From assembly GCA_903847975.1 (NCBI GenBank), contig CAINFC010000035.1, forward strand, positions 1 through 51,501: a DNA stretch of 51,501 nucleotides, given 5' to 3'. Below the pieces are notes generated by a model that did no database searches, had not been told where the DNA came from, and saw only the letters and a list, made by a program, of their open reading frames with translations. A program made the position numbers and the translations under genes. The stretch's first letter is position 1, and each line of letters opens with the position of its first letter. Shown in pieces: positions 3,511 to 51,501 of the stretch. This stretch comes from an uncultured Acidobacteriota bacterium. Lineage in GTDB: Bacteria > Acidobacteriota > UBA6911 > CAINFC01.

Positions 3511-5928
3511 CTACATGGGCGGCATCGGACGCATGGGCGCGGTACGGATCTGATACTCTTTCGGAGGTTCGGCCCCCAGCAGGTGGCGGACGAAGTAGTC
3601 CCAGCGACGGCGCATCATGTAGGGCTCGCTGCCGAAACCATGGCCGCGGTTGGGAAACAGCAGCAGGTCGAAATCCTTGTTGGCTTTGATCAGCTCGTTG
3701 ACCACCAGCAGGGTGTTATAGGGCGGCACGTTGTCGTCCATGGTCCCGTGAGCCAGCAGCAGCTTGCCTTTCAGGTTGCGGGCTACGAGCTGGTTGGCCT
3801 GGTTGTCGTAGTTGCCGGTCCCGTCGCTCTTGCTCTCCAGCAATCCCTGCCACTTTTCTCCCCAGTCATCTTCGTAATTACGGTTATCGTGATTGCCGGC
3901 CTGGGAAACGCCGACTTTGAAAAAGTCGGGATAGCGGAACATGGCCCCGGCCGTGGCGAACCCTCCCCCGGAGTGACCCCATATGCCGGCGCGATCGATG
4001 TCAATCCAGGAAAATCGCTCCGCCAGCTGCTGCATGCCGGCCACCTGGTCGGGAAGGCCGTTGTCACCCAAATTGCCGTAAGAGATTTCCTGGAATTTCC
4101 TGGAGCGCCCCGGGGTTCCCATGGCGTCCAGCTGAACCACCACAAACCCCAGCTCCGCCAGGGCCTGGGTGTCCCCGCGGGCCGCGGAAAAGCTGCGGCT
4201 GCCGACGCTGCCGGTCTGCGGCCCGGGATAGACCTGGTTGACAATCGGATACGTGCGAGCCGGATCGAAGGAGGTCGGCCGGAACAGCAGCCCGTAGAGG
4301 TCGGTGCTTTTGTCGCGCGCTTTGACGGTGAAGGGAATCGGCGGCTTCCAGCCCATGGCGACGAGCGGCGCGATGTCGGCCCGGGCCAGCGTCAGTAGCT
4401 CTTTGCCCTGCCGGTTGCGAAGAACGGTCACCGGGGGGACATCCGGCTTGGAGTAGCTGTCGAGGAAGCAGCTGCCGTCCGGGGAAAGAGTAATCTCATG
4501 ATTGGCGTCCTCGGGGGTCAGCAGCCGCAGACCGCTGCCGTCCAGGGCGACGCTGTAGAAGTGCCGGAAGTAGGGGTCCCGTCCCGGTTCCCGGCCCTGA
4601 CCGATGAAAAAGGCGGTGCGCGTTTTTTCGTCCACGCGCAGGAGCTGGTTGACGTTGCCTTCTCCCCGGGTGATCGGATTTTTCAGCCGGCCGCCGGCCA
4701 GGTCGTGCAGGTAGAGATGTCCCCAGTTTTCCCGCTGGGAAAACCAGATGAACTCCTGGCTGGAGGGCAGAAACATCCAGCTGCTGTGGTCGGCGCCGGA
4801 CTCGAAATAGGTATCCACCTTCTCCTGGAAAACGTCGCGCACTTCGCCCGATTCGGCGGAAGCCAGGCGCAGCGTGGCGACCTTATGGTCGCGGGAGCTG
4901 GAAACGAAGGCCAGCTGGCTGCTGTCGGCGCTCCACTGGGCGTCGTCCAGGTCGCCGCCGCGGACCTTGATGTCATCGGTCACCGTTCCCCGGCGGGCAT
5001 CGGGCGGCATCTTCAGGCGCACCGTGCGGGGTCCGTCGAGGTGCACGATCACCCGCTGGATGGTGATGATGTTCGGGTCGCCGGGCAGGGGATACTTCCA
5101 GGCCTGCAGGTTGGAGTGACCGACCCGGGTATCCACCAGGTACATCTCCCCGACGCTGCGCTGATCCTGCTGGTAGGTGGCGATTTTGCGGGAATCGGGA
5201 GACCAGAGGACGATGGGCCGGTCGCTGTGCGTCCAGCCGGCATTGTCCGTGGCGTAGCCGAAATCCCGGACGCCGTCGAAGGTCAGCTGCGTTTCCTGGC
5301 CGCCGGGAATCTCACGCAGCCACAGGTTGTCGTTGCGCAGGAAAACCGTATGCTTGCCGTCGGGCGAAGGGGAGTCCTTCCGGGCGAACGTGCCCATCCG
5401 CTCCATGCCGGGAGGCATCGCCGCCCGGCTTTCCCGGCCGGCGGCATTCTCGCCCTTCTCCTGGACGGTGCACTTGCTGCCGGCCGTGTCGCAGCGAAAG
5501 CGCTTCTCCCCCACGGAAAAAGTGACATCGCGGCCGTCGGCGGAATATTCGAAGGTCCGGAAGGGGAGCTTGTCTCCGCTGTAGGCCTGGCTGTTGGCTG
5601 CGGACAGGGCGGCGGCCAGCCGGGCATGATCGAATGCCGGTGTGCGGGCTGCCTTCTGCGGATCGACCAGCACGAATTCGGCGGCATTGTCCGCCAGGTT
5701 GTCGCGATACCAGAACCGCCCGTCCGGAAGCCAGTTGGGGTGCACCGCGGCATGCAGCACCAGCGGGGTGACGCTGGAGGAAAGGAACTTCTCGGCATGC
5801 TGATACTGCTCGGCGGTAACGGTCGGGGCCTGGGCGGCAGCGCTCCACATGACAGCGAGGAGCAAGGGAAACAGGCACAGACAGAGTAGGCAGAAAGAGA
5901 CGGGTTGGATTTTGGCTATATTTTTCAT
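3511..5928 (-). CDS. secreted S9 family peptidase (dipeptidyl-peptidase IV-like)
   Basis: This is an 805-residue prolyl-oligopeptidase-class serine peptidase with a signal peptide at about 1-33. An eight-bladed propeller-like N-terminal region (about 60-540) contains repeated SPDG/SPDS and WLREIPGG-type blades. The alpha/beta hydrolase domain follows. The catalytic triad is visible as Ser653 in GHSGGG, Asp731 in HGTMDDNVP and His763 in NRGHGFG, with spacing like DPP IV. The enzyme should remove N-terminal dipeptides (usually X-Pro or X-Ala) from peptides outside the cytoplasm. It is transcribed away from the leader-peptide gene at 6085 across a 156-base gap, so the two could share a control region. 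No signs of truncation. Confidence 0.93.
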   Translation of the reverse strand: MKNIAKIQPVSFCLLCLCLFPLLLAVMWSAAAQAPTVTAEQYQHAEKFLSSSVTPLVLHAAVHPNWLPDGRFWYRDNLADNAAEFVLVDPQKAARTPAFDHARLAAALSAANSQAYSGDKLPFRTFEYSADGRDVTFSVGEKRFRCDTAGSKCTVQEKGENAAGRESRAAMPPGMERMGTFARKDSPSPDGKHTVFLRNDNLWLREIPGGQETQLTFDGVRDFGYATDNAGWTHSDRPIVLWSPDSRKIATYQQDQRSVGEMYLVDTRVGHSNLQAWKYPLPGDPNIITIQRVIVHLDGPRTVRLKMPPDARRGTVTDDIKVRGGDLDDAQWSADSSQLAFVSSSRDHKVATLRLASAESGEVRDVFQEKVDTYFESGADHSSWMFLPSSQEFIWFSQRENWGHLYLHDLAGGRLKNPITRGEGNVNQLLRVDEKTRTAFFIGQGREPGRDPYFRHFYSVALDGSGLRLLTPEDANHEITLSPDGSCFLDSYSKPDVPPVTVLRNRQGKELLTLARADIAPLVAMGWKPPIPFTVKARDKSTDLYGLLFRPTSFDPARTYPIVNQVYPGPQTGSVGSRSFSAARGDTQALAELGFVVVQLDAMGTPGRSRKFQEISYGNLGDNGLPDQVAGMQQLAERFSWIDIDRAGIWGHSGGGFATAGAMFRYPDFFKVGVSQAGNHDNRNYEDDWGEKWQGLLESKSDGTGNYDNQANQLVARNLKGKLLLAHGTMDDNVPPYNTLLVVNELIKANKDFDLLLFPNRGHGFGSEPYMMRRRWDYFVRHLLGAEPPKEYQIRTAPMRPMPPM

Positions 5929-6036
5929 GGCGCAATTTTACCTGATGAGATTGTAAAAAGTCGCCATTTCTTTGGGTTTCCTGGCGAGAATTCTACGGAA
6001 ATCTCTGGGCCTCCATCCTTTTTCCCTTTCTTTCTG

Positions 6037-6042
6037 TATAAT
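6037..6042 (+). promoter_or_regulatory. probable -10 box for the leader-peptide gene
   Basis: TATAAT is followed within a few bases by a T7A10 run (6044-6062) and then a purine-rich ribosome site. The AT-rich block is exceptional in this GC-rich window and lies at the correct side of the peptide gene. No clear -35 box is seen, so strength and regulation are uncertain. Confidence 0.5.
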
Positions 6043-6084
6043 TTGTTTTTTTAAAAAAAAAAGAGGAAGGGAGACGATACCGAT

Positions 6085-6291
6085 ATGGGACAGACGGACG
6101 GGAACGGCGCGTTGGATGATGCTTCCCTGGAAAATGTAGCGGGAGGGGATGGAGGAGTTATATACTTTTGCACTCGATGCCTGACTTGCGAAATCACCTG
6201 GGGACCCATGCCGGGAAGCTCTATTCCCGCCTGTGAGGGTCAGCATACCGCCCAGAGCGGGCATAACGCCTTTTCCCGCTTCCAGGTTTAG
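6085..6291 (+). CDS. small peptide with bacteriocin-type double-glycine leader (RiPP-like precursor)
   Basis: This 68-residue peptide starts at an ATG preceded by GAGGAAGGGAG about eleven bases upstream. Residues 1-21 form an acidic leader ending in SLENVAGG, the double-glycine signature of bacteriocin-type and NHLP-type precursors. The remaining 47 residues form a putative core with CTRCLTC (Cys29, Cys32, Cys35), a fourth Cys50, and His54 and His60, ending in SRFQV. The Cys/His set could be a zinc knuckle, a disulfide or thioether scaffold, or a metal site. No dedicated modifying enzyme or C39 peptidase transporter is adjacent. The divergent S9 peptidase and the HisC-like gene 55 bases downstream are the nearest genes. 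Recognition rests on the leader motif; the product and its fate are unknown. Confidence 0.7.
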   Translation: MGQTDGNGALDDASLENVAGGDGGVIYFCTRCLTCEITWGPMPGSSIPACEGQHTAQSGHNAFSRFQV

Positions 6292-6346
6292 CCGATTCCC
6301 TCGACAGGACGGGCGGAAATCCGGATACCCGTTAAAGGAAGGATGA

Positions 6347-7456
6347 ATGACGATACCTGTCCGCATCCCGGATCACATCCGCGACCTGCCTGCCTATACG
6401 CCCATCGAGCCGTTTGAGGTGCTGTCGGAGCGGATCGGCCGCGCCCCGGAAGAGATCATCAAGCTGGATGCCAACGAAAATCCGTACGGCATGTCCCCCT
6501 GCGCCCGGGAAAGACTGGCCGGACTGCACTTCGGCCATATCTACCCGGACCCGGAAAGCCGTGCCCTGCGAAGGGTACTGAGCGATTTTTGCGGCGTTCC
6601 GGCGGAGAACCTTCTGGCCGGGGCCGGCGCCGATGAGCTGATTGACCTGATCATGCGCGTGACCCTGGAAAAGGGGGACGCCATCCTCAACTGCCCGCCC
6701 ACCTTCGGGATGTACCGGTTCGACGGCGATCTGAACGGCGCCCGGGTGATCGATGCTCCGCGCCGGCCCGACTTCCGCCTCGATTTGCCTGCCGTTTTGG
6801 CCGCCGCCGAAAAACAGGCCCCCAAGCTGATCTTCCTCACCTCTCCCAACAACCCGGACGGTTCGTTGCTGCCGGAAGAAGCGGTGGACCGGATTCTGGA
6901 GCTGCCGCTCCTGGTGGTGCTGGATGAGGCCTATATCGAATTTGCGGCGCCGCAGGACCTGGGCCGTTCGGCCAGCCGGATCACCGGCGTGCCCCGCAGG
7001 GAAAACCTGGTGGTGCTGCGCACCTTCAGCAAGCTGGCAGGTCTGGCCGGATTGCGGGTCGGCTATGGAGCTTTCCCTTCCTGGCTGATGGAGATTCTCT
7101 GGAAGGCCAAACAGCCCTACAACATCAATGTGGCGGCCAGCGAAGCGGCCATTGCCGCCATGGGGGACACAGACTACCTGCGGCGCACGGTAGGGTTGCT
7201 GGTGGCGGAACGCGAGCGGCTGCGCGGTGAACTGGCGAAGTTGCCTTTCCTGCAGCCATTTCCGACATTTTCCAACTTCATACTATGCCGGGTGACCGGC
7301 CGGGATGCCCGGCGGCTGAAGGAGGAACTGGCGATGCGCCACGGTATTTTTATCCGCTATTTCCAGAAGCCCGGCCTTACCGACTGCATCCGCATTTCCG
7401 TGGGAACACCGGAGCAGAACGAAGCGCTGCTGACCGTCCTGGCCAACCTGGCCTGA
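6347..7456 (+). CDS. hisC: histidinol-phosphate aminotransferase-like PLP enzyme
   Basis: This is a 369-residue class I/II aminotransferase of the HisC type. The N-terminal KLDANENPYG motif is diagnostic of the subfamily; the PLP aspartate lies in VVLDEAYIEF and the PLP lysine is Lys229 in TFSKLAGLAG. HisC converts histidinol phosphate and 2-oxoglutarate to imidazole acetol phosphate and glutamate or the reverse; related enzymes act on aromatic amino acids. The start follows AAAGGAAGGA closely. No other his genes are in the window. It is followed after 24 bases by potA on the same strand, so it may belong to the transporter operon, and it may have a role other than histidine synthesis. Confidence 0.88.
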   Translation: MTIPVRIPDHIRDLPAYTPIEPFEVLSERIGRAPEEIIKLDANENPYGMSPCARERLAGLHFGHIYPDPESRALRRVLSDFCGVPAENLLAGAGADELIDLIMRVTLEKGDAILNCPPTFGMYRFDGDLNGARVIDAPRRPDFRLDLPAVLAAAEKQAPKLIFLTSPNNPDGSLLPEEAVDRILELPLLVVLDEAYIEFAAPQDLGRSASRITGVPRRENLVVLRTFSKLAGLAGLRVGYGAFPSWLMEILWKAKQPYNINVAASEAAIAAMGDTDYLRRTVGLLVAERERLRGELAKLPFLQPFPTFSNFILCRVTGRDARRLKEELAMRHGIFIRYFQKPGLTDCIRISVGTPEQNEALLTVLANLA

Positions 7457-7480: not shown

Positions 7481-8563
7481 ATGCTTGAAATCCAGGGGGT
7501 ATCCAAACAGTACGGCAGCGCGGTGGTGGTCCGGCAGGTCCGTCTGCAGGTGGGCCAGGGCGAGTTCTTCTGTATACTGGGTCCGAGCGGCTGCGGCAAA
7601 ACTACGCTTTTGCGGCTGATCGCCGGATTCGAGCGGCCGACCGAAGGCCGTATCCTGCTCGACGGGGTCGACATCACCCACACGCCGCCCTATCGCCGGG
7701 ATGTCAATACAGTATTCCAGAACTATGCGCTGTTTCCTCACTGCACGGTCTTCGGGAATGTGGCTTACGGCCTGCAGGTACGCCGGCGGCCGGCCGGGGA
7801 GATCCGCGAGCGCGTGGATCAGGCCCTCGAGACGGTCGGCCTGGCCGGCCTGGCTGACCGCATGCCCGCGCAGCTTTCCGGCGGCCAGCAGCAGCGCGTG
7901 GCCCTGGCCCGCGCGCTGATCAACCGCCCCCGCATCCTGCTGCTGGACGAGCCCCTTTCGGCCCTCGACAAGAAAATCGGCGAGCAGATGCGCTACGAGC
8001 TCGCCGACCTGCAGGCCAAAACCGGCATCACCTTCATCTACGTGACCCACAACCAGGTGGAAGCCATGTCCATGGCCGGCCGCGTAGCGGTGATGAACCG
8101 GGGCAGCGTCGAGCAGTGTGCCCCGCCGGCAGAGCTCTACCGGAGCCCGGCCACCCGCTTCACGGCCGACTTCGTGGGTTCCATGAACTTCTTCGATGGT
8201 CGGATCGCCGAGGCGGGCCCGGATTCCTTCGGCATCCTGCTGGCCGACCAGACCCTGGTTCACCGGCGCGGGGAGGCTGGCGCCCGGCCCGGCGACCCGG
8301 TGGTCTTCGGCCTCCGGCCGGAGCAGCTCAAGGTCAGCCTGCTGGAGCCCAGGGACTTCGAGAACGGGCTGTTCGGCCGGATCGAGCGCCAGGTCTTCGT
8401 CGGGGATGCCACGCTGCTGCGCATCCGGCTCTCCAACGGGAGTCCGGTCGAGGTGCGCGTGCCCAACTACCTGGTGCTGGAAAACCGCGTAATGGCCCTC
8501 GAGCCCGATGAGGAGGTATGGGTGGTCTGGAGCCAGGGTTCGGGAGTGGTGCTCCATGACTGA
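7481..8563 (+). CDS. potA: polyamine-type ABC transporter ATP-binding protein
   Basis: The protein has 360 residues. Walker A is GPSGCGKTT (34-42), the signature LSGGQ is at 132-136, Walker B is LLLLDEP near 155, and a C-terminal TOBE region (about 280-355) ends in [12 protein letters not shown]. The TOBE domain and length match PotA/FbpC-type importer ATPases. It would energise uptake through the permeases encoded next. Its stop overlaps the start of potB by eight bases, indicating translational coupling. Substrate assignment to spermidine/putrescine rests on family resemblance of the whole set. A second ATPase at 13697 shares the unusual tail and appears to be a paralogue. Confidence 0.9.
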
Positions 8564-9438: not shown

Positions 9439-11292
9439 ATGGCCGGCCAACTCTCCCGCCGCAACGATCTCGGGCTGGGGCAGGGAGCCTTCCTCCGGTA
9501 TTCCACAGGGTTGTGCCTTTTCTTCCTTGTGGCGCCGCTGGTGGTCCTGGTGGTGTACTCCTTCAATGGCTCCAGCCAGGTGACCGTCTGGGAAGGCTTC
9601 AGTCTGAAATGGTTTGCGGCGACGATCTCCGACCGGGAGCTGTGGATTGCCATCCGCAACTCGATGATCGTTGCCGGCCTGAGCGCGTTGATTTCCACCG
9701 CTCTCGGCACGCTGACCGCCCTGTCCCTCGGGCGCTATGTCTTCCGGGGCCGGCGGATCCTGGCCGGATTGCTGTACGTTCCGGTGGTCCTGCCGGAGAT
9801 CATCCTGGGAATCGCGCTGCTGGTGCTCTTCGTGCTGCTCGATATCCAGCGCGGCTTCCTGACCGTAGTCTGCGGGCATGTGACCTTCAGCTTCCCTTTT
9901 GTGGGCCTGATGATCCTGGCGCGCGTCCAGACGCTGGACCGGACCCAGGAAGAGGCCAGCCTGGACCTGGGCGCCTCGCCGTGGCGCACCTTCCGCAGGG
10001 TGATCCTGCCGCCGCTGACCCCCGCCCTGCTGTCCGCGATGCTCTTTGCCTTCACCATAAGCCTCGACGATTTCGTGGTGACCTTTTTTACCACCGGCCC
10101 GGGTGTGACCACCCTGCCGTTGAAGGTCTACTCCCTGGTCAAGTTCGGATTGACGCCGGCGATCAACGTCATCTCAACCCTCATGATCGCCTTCACCCTG
10201 GTGGTCCTGCTGGCCGTCAACTGGATGCAGGAGGACGGCACACGGCAGCGCCTGGGCATGCGCCTGGGGGGCGGCCTGGCGGCCGCGCTGGTGCTGCTGC
10301 TGGTGATGTCCGTTCTCGGGGAGCGGAGGCAGTCCCGGCTGGTCGTTGCCACCTGGCCCAACTATTTCGACCAGGGGGTACTCGACGAGTTCGAGGCACG
10401 CACCGGCATTCATGTCATTCTTTCCTATTTCAACGACAACGAGGAGATGCTGGCCAAAACCTCCTTCGGCAAGCCCGGGATCGACCTGGTGACCCCGGCC
10501 GGCTTCATGATTGAGATCATGGGGAAGCAGGGCCTGCTTTCTCCCTTGGACCCGGACCGCCTTCCCAACCTGCGCTATCTGGACGAACGTTTCCGTCGGC
10601 TGCCCTTCGACCCGACCGGCCGCTACTACGTGCCCTACACCTACGGCTTCACGGGCCTTTTCTATGACAGCACGAAAGTGACCGAACCGGTCGACAGCTG
10701 GCGGCTGCTCTGGGACGAGCGCTACCGGGGCAGGCTGCTGATGTTCGACGACATGCTCGAAAATTTCGACCTGGCCCACCGCCTGCTGGGTTTCCGGCTG
10801 GTGGATCGCGATACCGCGCACCTGGACGCCGCCTTCGCACTGCTCCAGCAGCAGCGCCCCCTGCTGCGCAAGCACGAGAGCAACCTGGTCAACGAGATGC
10901 TGCTCGGCGGTGAAGTGGTCGCCGCCCAGAACTGGAACGGGAACGCGATGCGCCTCAACCGCAAGCACCCGCAGTTCAAGTTCCTGATCCCCAAGGAAGG
11001 AACGCTGCTTTTCGTGGACACCCTCTGTCTGCTCCAGACCGCCCCGAATCCGGCCGCCGCCTACGCCTTCGTCAACTATCTGCTCGAACCGGCCAATGCG
11101 CAGCGCAACATGCAGGGCATCCTTTATGCCATGCCGAATCCGGAAGCCCGCCGCAGGATGCCGCCGGAACTGCGGGACGACACCACCCTTTTCCCGCCGA
11201 TCACGGACATGTCGCAGCTCAGCGTGATGGCCGACCTGGGCCCCTTTCTCCAGGAGGTGCGGAAGCGCTGGATCCGGCTGAAGACGGAATAA
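9439..11292 (+). CDS. potCD: fused permease and substrate-binding protein, PotC-PotD-like
   Basis: The protein has 617 residues and carries two normally separate parts. Residues about 1-265 are a PotC-like permease with six membrane segments and the EAA loop EASLDLGASPWRTFRRVILP near 175. Residues about 275-295 form one further membrane helix (GGLAAALVLLLVMSVLG). Residues about 300-617 are a PotD/PotF-like binding domain beginning LVVATWPNYFDQGVLDEF. The frame is continuous with no stop or shift at the join. The extra helix would tether the binding domain to the outer face of the membrane. PotCD fusions are known in some bacteria. Ligand identity (spermidine, putrescine or another cation) is not settled by the sequence. 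Confidence 0.9.
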   Translation: MAGQLSRRNDLGLGQGAFLRYSTGLCLFFLVAPLVVLVVYSFNGSSQVTVWEGFSLKWFAATISDRELWIAIRNSMIVAGLSALISTALGTLTALSLGRYVFRGRRILAGLLYVPVVLPEIILGIALLVLFVLLDIQRGFLTVVCGHVTFSFPFVGLMILARVQTLDRTQEEASLDLGASPWRTFRRVILPPLTPALLSAMLFAFTISLDDFVVTFFTTGPGVTTLPLKVYSLVKFGLTPAINVISTLMIAFTLVVLLAVNWMQEDGTRQRLGMRLGGGLAAALVLLLVMSVLGERRQSRLVVATWPNYFDQGVLDEFEARTGIHVILSYFNDNEEMLAKTSFGKPGIDLVTPAGFMIEIMGKQGLLSPLDPDRLPNLRYLDERFRRLPFDPTGRYYVPYTYGFTGLFYDSTKVTEPVDSWRLLWDERYRGRLLMFDDMLENFDLAHRLLGFRLVDRDTAHLDAAFALLQQQRPLLRKHESNLVNEMLLGGEVVAAQNWNGNAMRLNRKHPQFKFLIPKEGTLLFVDTLCLLQTAPNPAAAYAFVNYLLEPANAQRNMQGILYAMPNPEARRRMPPELRDDTTLFPPITDMSQLSVMADLGPFLQEVRKRWIRLKTE

Positions 11293-11368: not shown

Positions 11369-11640
11369 GCAAGGCGGGCGGAAGGCCCGCTAACATAATA
11401 GCCTGGGGTGGAGCACAGCGGAGCCCCAGGTCGGCTTGCTTTACATACGGAGGGCTGAAAGTCCGAGCCCCATCCTCTGGGATCGATCCTTTACAAAGAT
11501 TTTTGTCCGGGACCACCCTTATAGGGATAGGATGAGAGAATGTCTCGGGCTTTCAGCCCTTATGTATAAACGAACTGCGCACCTGGGGCTGCGCTTCGCC
11601 TCACCCCCAGGCTATTATGTGCCGGGCCTTTGGCCCTTGC
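11369..11640. repeat. 272-base imperfect inverted-repeat element
   Basis: Two arms, about 11369-11475 and 11529-11640, are imperfect inverse copies. Both begin GCAAGG and contain CATAATAGCCTGGGG, then a CCTGGGG...CCCCAGG hairpin, then GGGCTGAAAG. The centre is about 50 bases. No open frame resembling a transposase fits. The first in-frame ATG of the following sulfate-binding gene (11617) lies in the right arm and is therefore not credible as a start. The arrangement resembles nonautonomous palindromic repeats common in large-genome bacteria. The flanking 11293-11368 holds nothing I can identify. Confidence 0.75.
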
Positions 11641-11693
11641 CTTTTTTCGTCGCCATTATTCCTGGCGGCGGGCGGAATCCACTTGCATAGGGT

Positions 11694-14851: not shown

Positions 14852-14897
14852 TACCTGGGTACCTCCCGTCTGCCGGTGACAGGCCCTGGCGCTTTTC

Positions 14898-14972
14898 TTC
14901 CCGCTCTTCCTTTCTTCCTGCAAGCCCAGTCTTTTCACAGGAAGACGGGAAAATCGGGAAGGAAGAAAGAAG
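14898..14972. repeat. dispersed GGAAGA-rich palindromic repeat, copy 1
   Basis: The segment has a pyrimidine-rich half (CTTCCCGCTCTTCCTTTC) and, after CTTTTCACAGGAAGACGGGAA, a purine-rich half. It closely matches 23113-23188, and a tandem remnant of the same word lies at 17406-17432. No gene is apparent in 14852-15173, the 322-base gap that holds this and the next three repeats. Confidence 0.7.
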
Positions 14973-14999
14973 CCGTCCGTGAATTTCGGATGGGGAGAG

Positions 15000-15045
15000 G
15001 GACTTTTTACGAATCCGTCAGCCTTGATTGCCCGGCGAAAAGTCC
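15000..15045. repeat. 46-base GGACTTTTT element, copy 1
   Basis: The element begins GGACTTTTTACGAATCCGTC and ends GCGAAAAGTCC, so its ends are inverse copies. It has the same length and end sequence as the element at 36029-36074, which lies in the opposite orientation. The flank TGGGGAGAG is also shared. Confidence 0.7.
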
Positions 15046-15056
15046 GTTTTGGAATT

Positions 15057-15127
15057 CAGAATCCAGAAGATAGAATTCAGAATAGAAGCAACCTGTAGAA
15101 ATAATGTTTTTTCTATTCTGGATTCTG
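15057..15127. repeat. AT-rich imperfect inverted repeat
   Basis: CAGAATCCAGAAGATAGAA at the left and TTCTATTCTGGATTCTG at the right are near-inverse copies, and TTCAGAAT recurs between them. The block is far lower in GC than its surroundings and could fold into a long hairpin 3' of the radical SAM gene. Confidence 0.55.
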
Positions 15128-15155
15128 GCACCTGCATTCTGACTTCCTGTTTTTC

Positions 15156-23086: not shown

Positions 23087-23112
23087 TGCCTGTTCCTTTT
23101 CCAGTTCTTTCG

Positions 23113-23188
23113 CTTTTCTTCCTGCCCTTCCATTTCTTCCTGTGAGGCCTTTTCACAGGAAGACGGGAAGATCAGGAAGAAAGAAGAA
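23113..23188. repeat. dispersed GGAAGA-rich palindromic repeat, copy 2
   Basis: The segment shares CTTTTCACAGGAAGACGGGAA and the flanking TTCTTCCTG and AGGAAGAAAGAAG halves with 14898-14972. It is a palindrome by design (TTCTTCCTG against CAGGAAGA) and follows the stop of the secreted protein at 23231. Confidence 0.7.
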
Positions 23189-23230
23189 GCCTGAGGCCGT
23201 TCCCTTCAGAGAAGACTTTTGGCAATTGCC

Positions 23231-35605: not shown

Positions 35606-35812
35606 ATGTTCGGCAAGAACCTGAAAATTGACCCCGAATTATTGAAGCGCTGCCAGTCCTGTGCAGCAAAAGCCGGATACCGCTCTGCGGAGGAATTTAT
35701 CCATCATGTCCTGGAGCGGGCCTGCAAGGATTCCGAAGAGGGATACCGACATGGGGAAGAAGAGGTTACCCTACGTCTGAAAGTTCCGGATCCGGAATCC
35801 GGAAAGCCCTGA
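35606..35812 (+). CDS. small ribbon-helix-helix-like protein
   Basis: The protein has 68 residues after AGAGAGGAA. Its centre (IDPELLKRCQSCAAKAGYRS then EEFIHHVLERA) has the helix-turn-helix spacing of the RHH/Arc family, which bind DNA as dimers. There is a Cys pair (CQSC). The C-terminus is acidic, and the stop codon falls at the first bases of the palindromic repeat region at 35810. It follows the hybrid kinase by 59 bases on the same strand. Function unproven; a regulator or antitoxin-like role is possible, but no toxin gene is next to it. Confidence 0.68.
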   Translation: MFGKNLKIDPELLKRCQSCAAKAGYRSAEEFIHHVLERACKDSEEGYRHGEEEVTLRLKVPDPESGKP

Positions 35813-36028
35813 AAGGGCTTCGTAACACAGCCCGGGGTTGGCGCGCTTCGCGCCTACCCCGGGTAGGGACACCCGTGGGCAACAACCCTGTAAGGGTTGC
35901 GCAAAATCCAGCCATGCCAGGTGTTTGCGCAGCCCTTACAGGGCTGATTTTCAAAAAATCCGCCTTCCCGGGGTAGCGCCTGTGCGGCGCAACCCCGGGC
36001 TGTGATCCGGAACCCCTTTCGGGGTTCC
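35810..36028. repeat. complex palindromic repeat region, inverse of the right-end copy
   Basis: The region is built from hairpin units: AGCCCTGAAAGGGCT, CAACCCTGTAAGGGTTG, CAGCCCTTACAGGGCTG and GGAACCCCTTTCGGGGTTCC, with CCCGGGGTTGGCGCG and its inverse CCCCGGGCTG. The whole is a large imperfect inverted repeat centred near 35915. The right half (about 35890-36028) is nearly identical, in inverse orientation, to 51359-51501. No gene is seen in it. It fills most of the 371-base gap between the small RHH-like gene and the EF-hand gene. Confidence 0.8.
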
Positions 36029-36074
36029 GGACTTTTTGCGAAGCCATCAGAAACGATGGAGCGGTAAAAAGTCC
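36029..36074. repeat. 46-base GGACTTTTT element, copy 2
   Basis: The ends are GGACTTTTT and AAAAAGTCC, perfect inverse copies of nine bases; CCATC and GATGG form a second stem inside. The same 46-base length is seen at 15000-15045 in the opposite orientation. It abuts the large palindromic region on its left. The remaining gap to 36183 holds no recognised feature. Confidence 0.75.
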
Positions 36075-36183
36075 CTTTCCCCATCCGAAATGCCCTGATT
36101 GCTTCTTAATTGATTGGGCTTACGGGAAGAAAAGCGCAAGGGCCTGTGGCCAGCAGACGGGGATTTATTGCCGCTTTCTTTTT

Positions 36184-51218: not shown

Positions 51219-51437
51219 ATGGTAACGGAAGTAAGCAGTCCGAGCAGCCTCATAGCCCATCTGTTGAATTCCCCATCGCAGAAGCACAAAGACAGACTGT
51301 TCCGGAAGGCACCAGGTCGACTTTTTGCGAGATTATCTTTTCTGACAGCCCGGCATAAGGGAACCCCGAAAGGGGTTCCGGAACACAGCCCGGGGTTGCG
51401 CCGCACGGACGCTACCCCGGGTAGGCGGATTTTTTGA
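51219..51437 (+). CDS. candidate small gene running into the right-end repeat
   Basis: The ATG follows AGGAGAG at six bases, one of the stronger ribosome sites here. The frame gives 72 residues: the first 45 (VTEVSSPSSLIAHLLN, then basic) are Ser/Lys/Arg-rich, and the last part is translated from the palindromic repeat that starts near 51359. It may be a gene whose 3' end was replaced by the repeat, or not a gene. No family recognised. Confidence 0.3.
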   Translation: MVTEVSSPSSLIAHLLNSPSQKHKDRLFRKAPGRLFARLSFLTARHKGTPKGVPEHSPGLRRTDATPGRRIF

Positions 51438-51501
51438 AAATCAGCCCTGTAAGGGCTGCGCAAACATTTGCCAGGGCTGGATTTTGCGCAACCCTTTCAG
51501 G
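51359..51501. repeat. palindromic repeat region, right-end copy (truncated by the window)
   Basis: GGAACCCCGAAAGGGGTTCC, then CACAGCCCGGGGTTGCGCCG, GGCGGATTTTTTGAAAATCA and GCCCTGTAAGGGCTGCGCAA are the inverse of 35890-36028 with few changes. The copy continues past the window. A GACTTTTTGCGA word at 51319 before it recalls the 46-base element that borders the other copy. Confidence 0.8.

Follow-up and report, generated by a model that had tools for sequence, protein, structure and literature searches.

Secreted peptides with a double-glycine (GG) leader are described from two groups of systems, the closest known to the peptide reported here. The first comprises the NHLP (TIGR03793) and Nif11 (TIGR03798) precursors with the NHLM exporter (TIGR03794/03796/03797), in which the precursor genes are often found far from the genes for export and modification (Haft et al. 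2010, PMC2887384). The second comprises the class II microcins and classical double-glycine bacteriocins (TIGR01847-type), in which a small precursor carries a leader of ~20 residues ending in GG and is handled by a C39 PCAT (PMC9746304). A C39 protease needs Val at position -4 and Leu at positions -7 and -12 of the leader, and cuts Nif11- and NHLP-type leaders that precede varied cores (PMC6363468).

The window analysed here is the whole of a 51,501-nucleotide stretch from an uncultured Acidobacteriota bacterium. It contains an intact 68-codon ORF, P0001, that runs from ATG to TAG (Table 1) and has the full product MGQTDGNGALDDASLENVAGGDGGVIYFCTRCLTCEITWGPMPGSSIPACEGQHTAQSGHNAFSRFQV. The frame is open for just 10 codons 5' of the ATG, which is the sole start listed, and a 142-codon ORF on the opposite strand (5938-6366, minus) overlaps it. 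Translation agrees with the initial annotation, which had described a 68-residue peptide with a GG leader and a core rich in Cys and His: Gly-Gly at residues 20 and 21 ends the N-terminal leader, and the core follows the pattern DGG...C29..C32..C35...C50...H54...H60. The same annotation had placed a promoter-like box and a ribosome site upstream. The Shine-Dalgarno-like purine stretch stands, while the promoter is reduced to a lone -10-like hexamer, as a promoter scan found no -35/-10 pair (full sigma-70 match) upstream of P0001.

Table 1. Features of the P0001 locus, in window coordinates.
Feature	Position	Strand	Basis
S9 / DPP-IV family peptidase, divergent neighbour	3511..5928	-	PF00930, PF00326
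TATAAT, -10-like hexamer without recognisable -35 partner	6037..6042	+	read from sequence
Shine-Dalgarno-like purine stretch AGAGGAAGGGAG	6062..6073	+	read from sequence; ends 11 nt before P0001 ATG
P0001, candidate double-glycine precursor peptide, 68 aa	6085..6291	+	translation, leader score
P0001 leader MGQTDGNGALDDASLENVAGG, 21 residues	6085..6147	+	translation, matrix score; V-4, L-7, L-12 before GG cleavage site
P0001 core DGGVIYFCTRCLTCEITWGPMPGSSIPACEGQHTAQSGHNAFSRFQV, 47 residues, Cys/His-containing	6148..6288	+	translation
hisC, histidinol-phosphate transaminase, 55 nt downstream of P0001	6347..7456	+	TIGR01141 above cut-off

The flanking genes are those expected from the initial annotation, with the peptidase divergent from P0001 and hisC as the PLP aminotransferase downstream; ABC importer-like genes also lie beside it. 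None of these is a maturase; an adjacent maturase is usual for RiPP precursors but not obligatory. The divergent S9 peptidase is probably unrelated to P0001. The hisC product shares 69% identity with proteins of Anaerolineae (Chloroflexota), and a search of 37 other genomes of the class at E <= 1e-60 gave no match for it; the gene was probably acquired horizontally. The other genes of the window are not found in a shared order at related hisC loci. Among the importer-like genes, a single 617-codon ORF (9439-11292), which sits 3' of potA- and potB-like ORFs, resembles on inspection by eye a fusion of an ABC permease with a periplasmic binding protein of the spermidine/putrescine type (potC-potD-like).

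P0001 resembles the class II microcins and classical double-glycine bacteriocins in its leader length, its small size and the presence of a C39 PCAT in its genome. Unlike these, it matched no family of microcins or bacteriocins in Pfam or NCBIfam, no immunity-type gene was recognised adjoining it among the ORFs of the window, and the exporter of its genome is an NHLM one that includes a second ABC protein. Compared with the NHLP and Nif11 systems, the last 13 residues of its leader, ALDDASLENVAGG, resemble those of the NHLP and Nif11 precursors of its own genome, its gene is likewise remote from the exporter and the maturases, and its Cys-containing core is unlike any other. In contrast to those systems, where leaders are about 83 or 70 residues long, the P0001 leader matches no Pfam or NCBIfam leader model: it lacks the ~80-residue nitrile-hydratase-alpha-like leader of NHLP, with no match to TIGR03793 (cut-off 50.9 bits), and has no Nif11 domain (TIGR03798/PF07862) before the GG. 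Its core of 47 residues compares with an average of 26 for LanM-linked NHLPs (Haft et al. 2010, PMC2887384).

The leader motif clearly exceeds what chance would give. Val, Leu and Leu occupy positions -4, -7 and -12, while the Glu at -8 of the ComA rule is replaced by Ser. Using a matrix built from five other GG peptides of the same genome, with P0001 left out, the leader scored 26.8 bits, against background scores of at most 13.9 (own genome, 175 kb) and 20.3 (other genomes, 649 kb). In simulated windows matched to the trinucleotide content of the real one, a loose form of the motif occurred in short ORFs at a mean of 0.13 per window and the strict form LEx[VI]AGG in 0 of 60. A genome-wide DNA pattern for the motif gave 10 matches, compared with one for the reversed control. 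The three tests point the same way and have to be read knowing that P0001 had been chosen in the first place for this very motif. The matrix test, together with the residues at -4, -7 and -12 that fit the rule for C39 substrates, thus supports the original reading of a bacteriocin/NHLP-type GG leader.

The genome spans 8.13 Mb in 326 contigs and is 99% complete. It encodes one C39 peptidase domain, at C265:41103-41492, so that a C39 exporter expected to accompany a double-glycine peptide is present in the same genome. It forms part of an NHLM export cluster of C39-ABC, ABC and HlyD-like proteins: the C39-ABC protein matches TIGR03796 at 904 bits (cut-off 853), the second ABC protein matches TIGR03797 at 713 bits (cut-off 709), and the HlyD-like partner matches TIGR03794 below cut-off. 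Among 38 genomes of the class, only three encode a TIGR03796 protein above cut-off. The genome also has at least six further precursors of the NHLP, Nif11 or GG kind, scattered over other contigs, in a census that rests on patterns and family models: NHLP-type precursors on C22, C93 and C152 (above cut-off) and C293 (weaker), Nif11-type precursors on C294 and C225, and a further GG peptide on C80. A LanM (TIGR03897, 615 bits, cut-off 304) adjoins the C225 precursor, YcaO/SagD and SagB adjoin that on C22, and B12-binding radical SAM proteins lie by that on C294. The initial statement that neither a maturase nor a C39 transporter accompanies P0001 therefore holds for its immediate neighbourhood only, as all of these are encoded on other contigs of the genome. 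The apparent isolation of P0001 can be explained by the scattered layout known for such precursors.

Two of these loci have features of their own. The C80 peptide (L069:6700-7062) reads ...LVYEPPTIRSLEDKDLDQVSGG followed by a Gly/Ser/Cys-rich core, lies 3' of a 1168-codon ORF and has a weak TigB match (E=0.004). At C294:1500-15500 (L068), B12-binding radical SAM-type ORFs surround a peptide that has a Nif11 leader (MSDEELDKVAGG) and no Cys in its core.

The window and the exporter contig belong to one genome, as they have a dispersed intergenic repeat family in common and their tetranucleotide profiles correlate at r 0.986. The repeats are also shared with C93, C22, C80 and other contigs (tetranucleotide correlation 0.94-0.99), and contamination of the bin as the source of the window was rejected because of the shared repeats. 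Within the window the repeats lie at 11371-11649, 14865-15138, 23101-23191, 35792-36171 and 51350-51501. The families are partly self-palindromic, with 35798-36031 and 11371-11643 pairing with themselves; copies are mostly 82-94% identical, are found on many contigs of the genome and are MITE- or REP-like in appearance.

On balance, we take P0001 to be the precursor of a small secreted peptide with a short bacteriocin-type leader, which would be cut and exported in trans by the NHLM exporter on C265. This ABC transporter would hold the leader helix at L-12, L-7 and V-4 through its C39 peptidase domain and cut after Gly21, and the 47-residue core would then leave through the same exporter. This proposal follows from the three hydrophobic positions, the rule for C39 substrates and the known remoteness of precursors from export genes. 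A second GG at residues 23-24 could allow cleavage three residues further on. Once outside, the core might act as a microcin-like or a signalling peptide. An orphan double-glycine precursor of this kind is credible.

Whether the core is modified is a closer question. Each maturase cluster of the genome adjoins a precursor with a long leader (NHLP or Nif11), whereas the leader of P0001 has 21 residues, and we lean slightly towards a core that is unmodified, or disulfide-bonded through its four Cys, over one that is modified by enzymes. The missing long leader likewise makes LanM, YcaO and the radical SAM enzymes somewhat less likely as partners. The alternative that survives best is nevertheless that P0001 is a RiPP precursor modified in trans before NHLM export, either by the LanM on C225, which would introduce lanthionine rings, or by YcaO/SagB or a radical SAM enzyme, by analogy with the prochlorosins, in which one LanM processes precursors encoded at scattered sites. 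Such enzymes are all encoded in the genome, the core offers Cys together with Ser/Thr (eight residues), and distant precursors are known for the Nif11 and NHLP families (PMC2887384). Since P0001 has neither a Nif11 nor an NHase-like domain and every maturase cluster has a long-leader precursor of its own nearby, we regard this as possible but rather unlikely.

P0001 could also be a chance ORF in the gap between the peptidase gene and hisC, with a stretch that resembles a leader by coincidence. Its coding statistics are moderate: the codon score of +0.076 bits per codon is the best of the six frames, but lies below those of 87% of true gene slices and is reached by 38% of open wrong-frame slices. 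Scores only slightly higher, 0.08 and 0.113, come from two GG precursors elsewhere in the genome that have unusual cores. The homologue search called for by the initial annotation found none for the whole peptide, and its leader is resembled only by precursors of the same genome. A search of about 85,000 species with short exact peptide seeds came up empty, as did searches of 396 genomes of the phylum, viral contigs, phages and the PDB, and its own genome holds no paralogue; plasmids gave one chance-level match (E=0.9), and 60 relatives gave only matches at E 0.006-1 to frames without a GG leader. Conservation therefore cannot prove the gene. The relatives sampled are distant and come from outside its family, and the missing homologues are weak evidence against the gene, yet they remove the strongest possible proof. 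The missing promoter match points the same way as the codon score and the searches. Against a chance ORF stand the leader score, far over background, the correct spacing of the motif from a start codon with its SD-like stretch, the best frame of six, and a matching exporter in the genome, and we consider it unlikely.

A metal-binding mini-protein, whether it stays in the cytoplasm or is exported, is an improbable alternative; zinc or copper would be bound by CxxCxxC...C/H, and the GG would be incidental or serve export only. The four Cys and two His are present, but there is no match to a zinc-ribbon or metallochaperone family in Pfam or NCBIfam, AlphaFold run without an alignment gave no confident fold (mean pLDDT 40.5), and the leader score argues against an incidental GG. 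Control of hisC by P0001 as a leader ORF, through attenuation or translational coupling, is suggested by the short gap and by the lack of a terminator between the two in a scan, but is very improbable as there is no terminator hairpin, a GG peptide lies upstream of hisC in 0 of 80 related loci, and with just two, non-adjacent His codons in 68 a his attenuator peptide is rejected.

Returning to the secreted-peptide reading, we searched the class and phylum for GG plus CxxCxxC patterns. Most matches were in wrong frames; the plausible ones were L160, L161 (NHLP-like) and a peptide from another genome of the phylum, G367. The latter, MTKDDKTQPQDKLPEFGIAEMEELQDDALDDVSGG-SDCGGCTLCGGVSPDC... on contig C45, is like P0001 in having a fairly short leader, a CxxCxxC and a fourth Cys, and its leader, which contains DDALDDVSGG, scores 29.8 bits with the same matrix. 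Its core is shorter and Gly-rich, and it was found by pattern rather than by homology; the likeness may be convergent. The peptide lies near 7874 of locus L163 (G367 C45:12874) in a genome of 10.2 Mb, with no obvious maturase in 17 kb. It is doubtful that P0001, perhaps with the G367 peptide, represents a group of short-leader secreted peptides, rich in Cys (CxxCxxC...C), that leave through the NHLM exporter with no maturase involved.

For GG peptides in general, a missing nearby maturase is a poor sign of novelty unless the whole genome has been checked. In this organism, a single C39 exporter could serve all of the RiPP systems of the genome. If P0001 is real, the genome encodes a sequence-unique candidate secreted peptide in addition to its several RiPP systems, and if the short-leader group were also real, NHLM exporters would serve unmodified, disulfide- or metal-bound peptides besides RiPPs.
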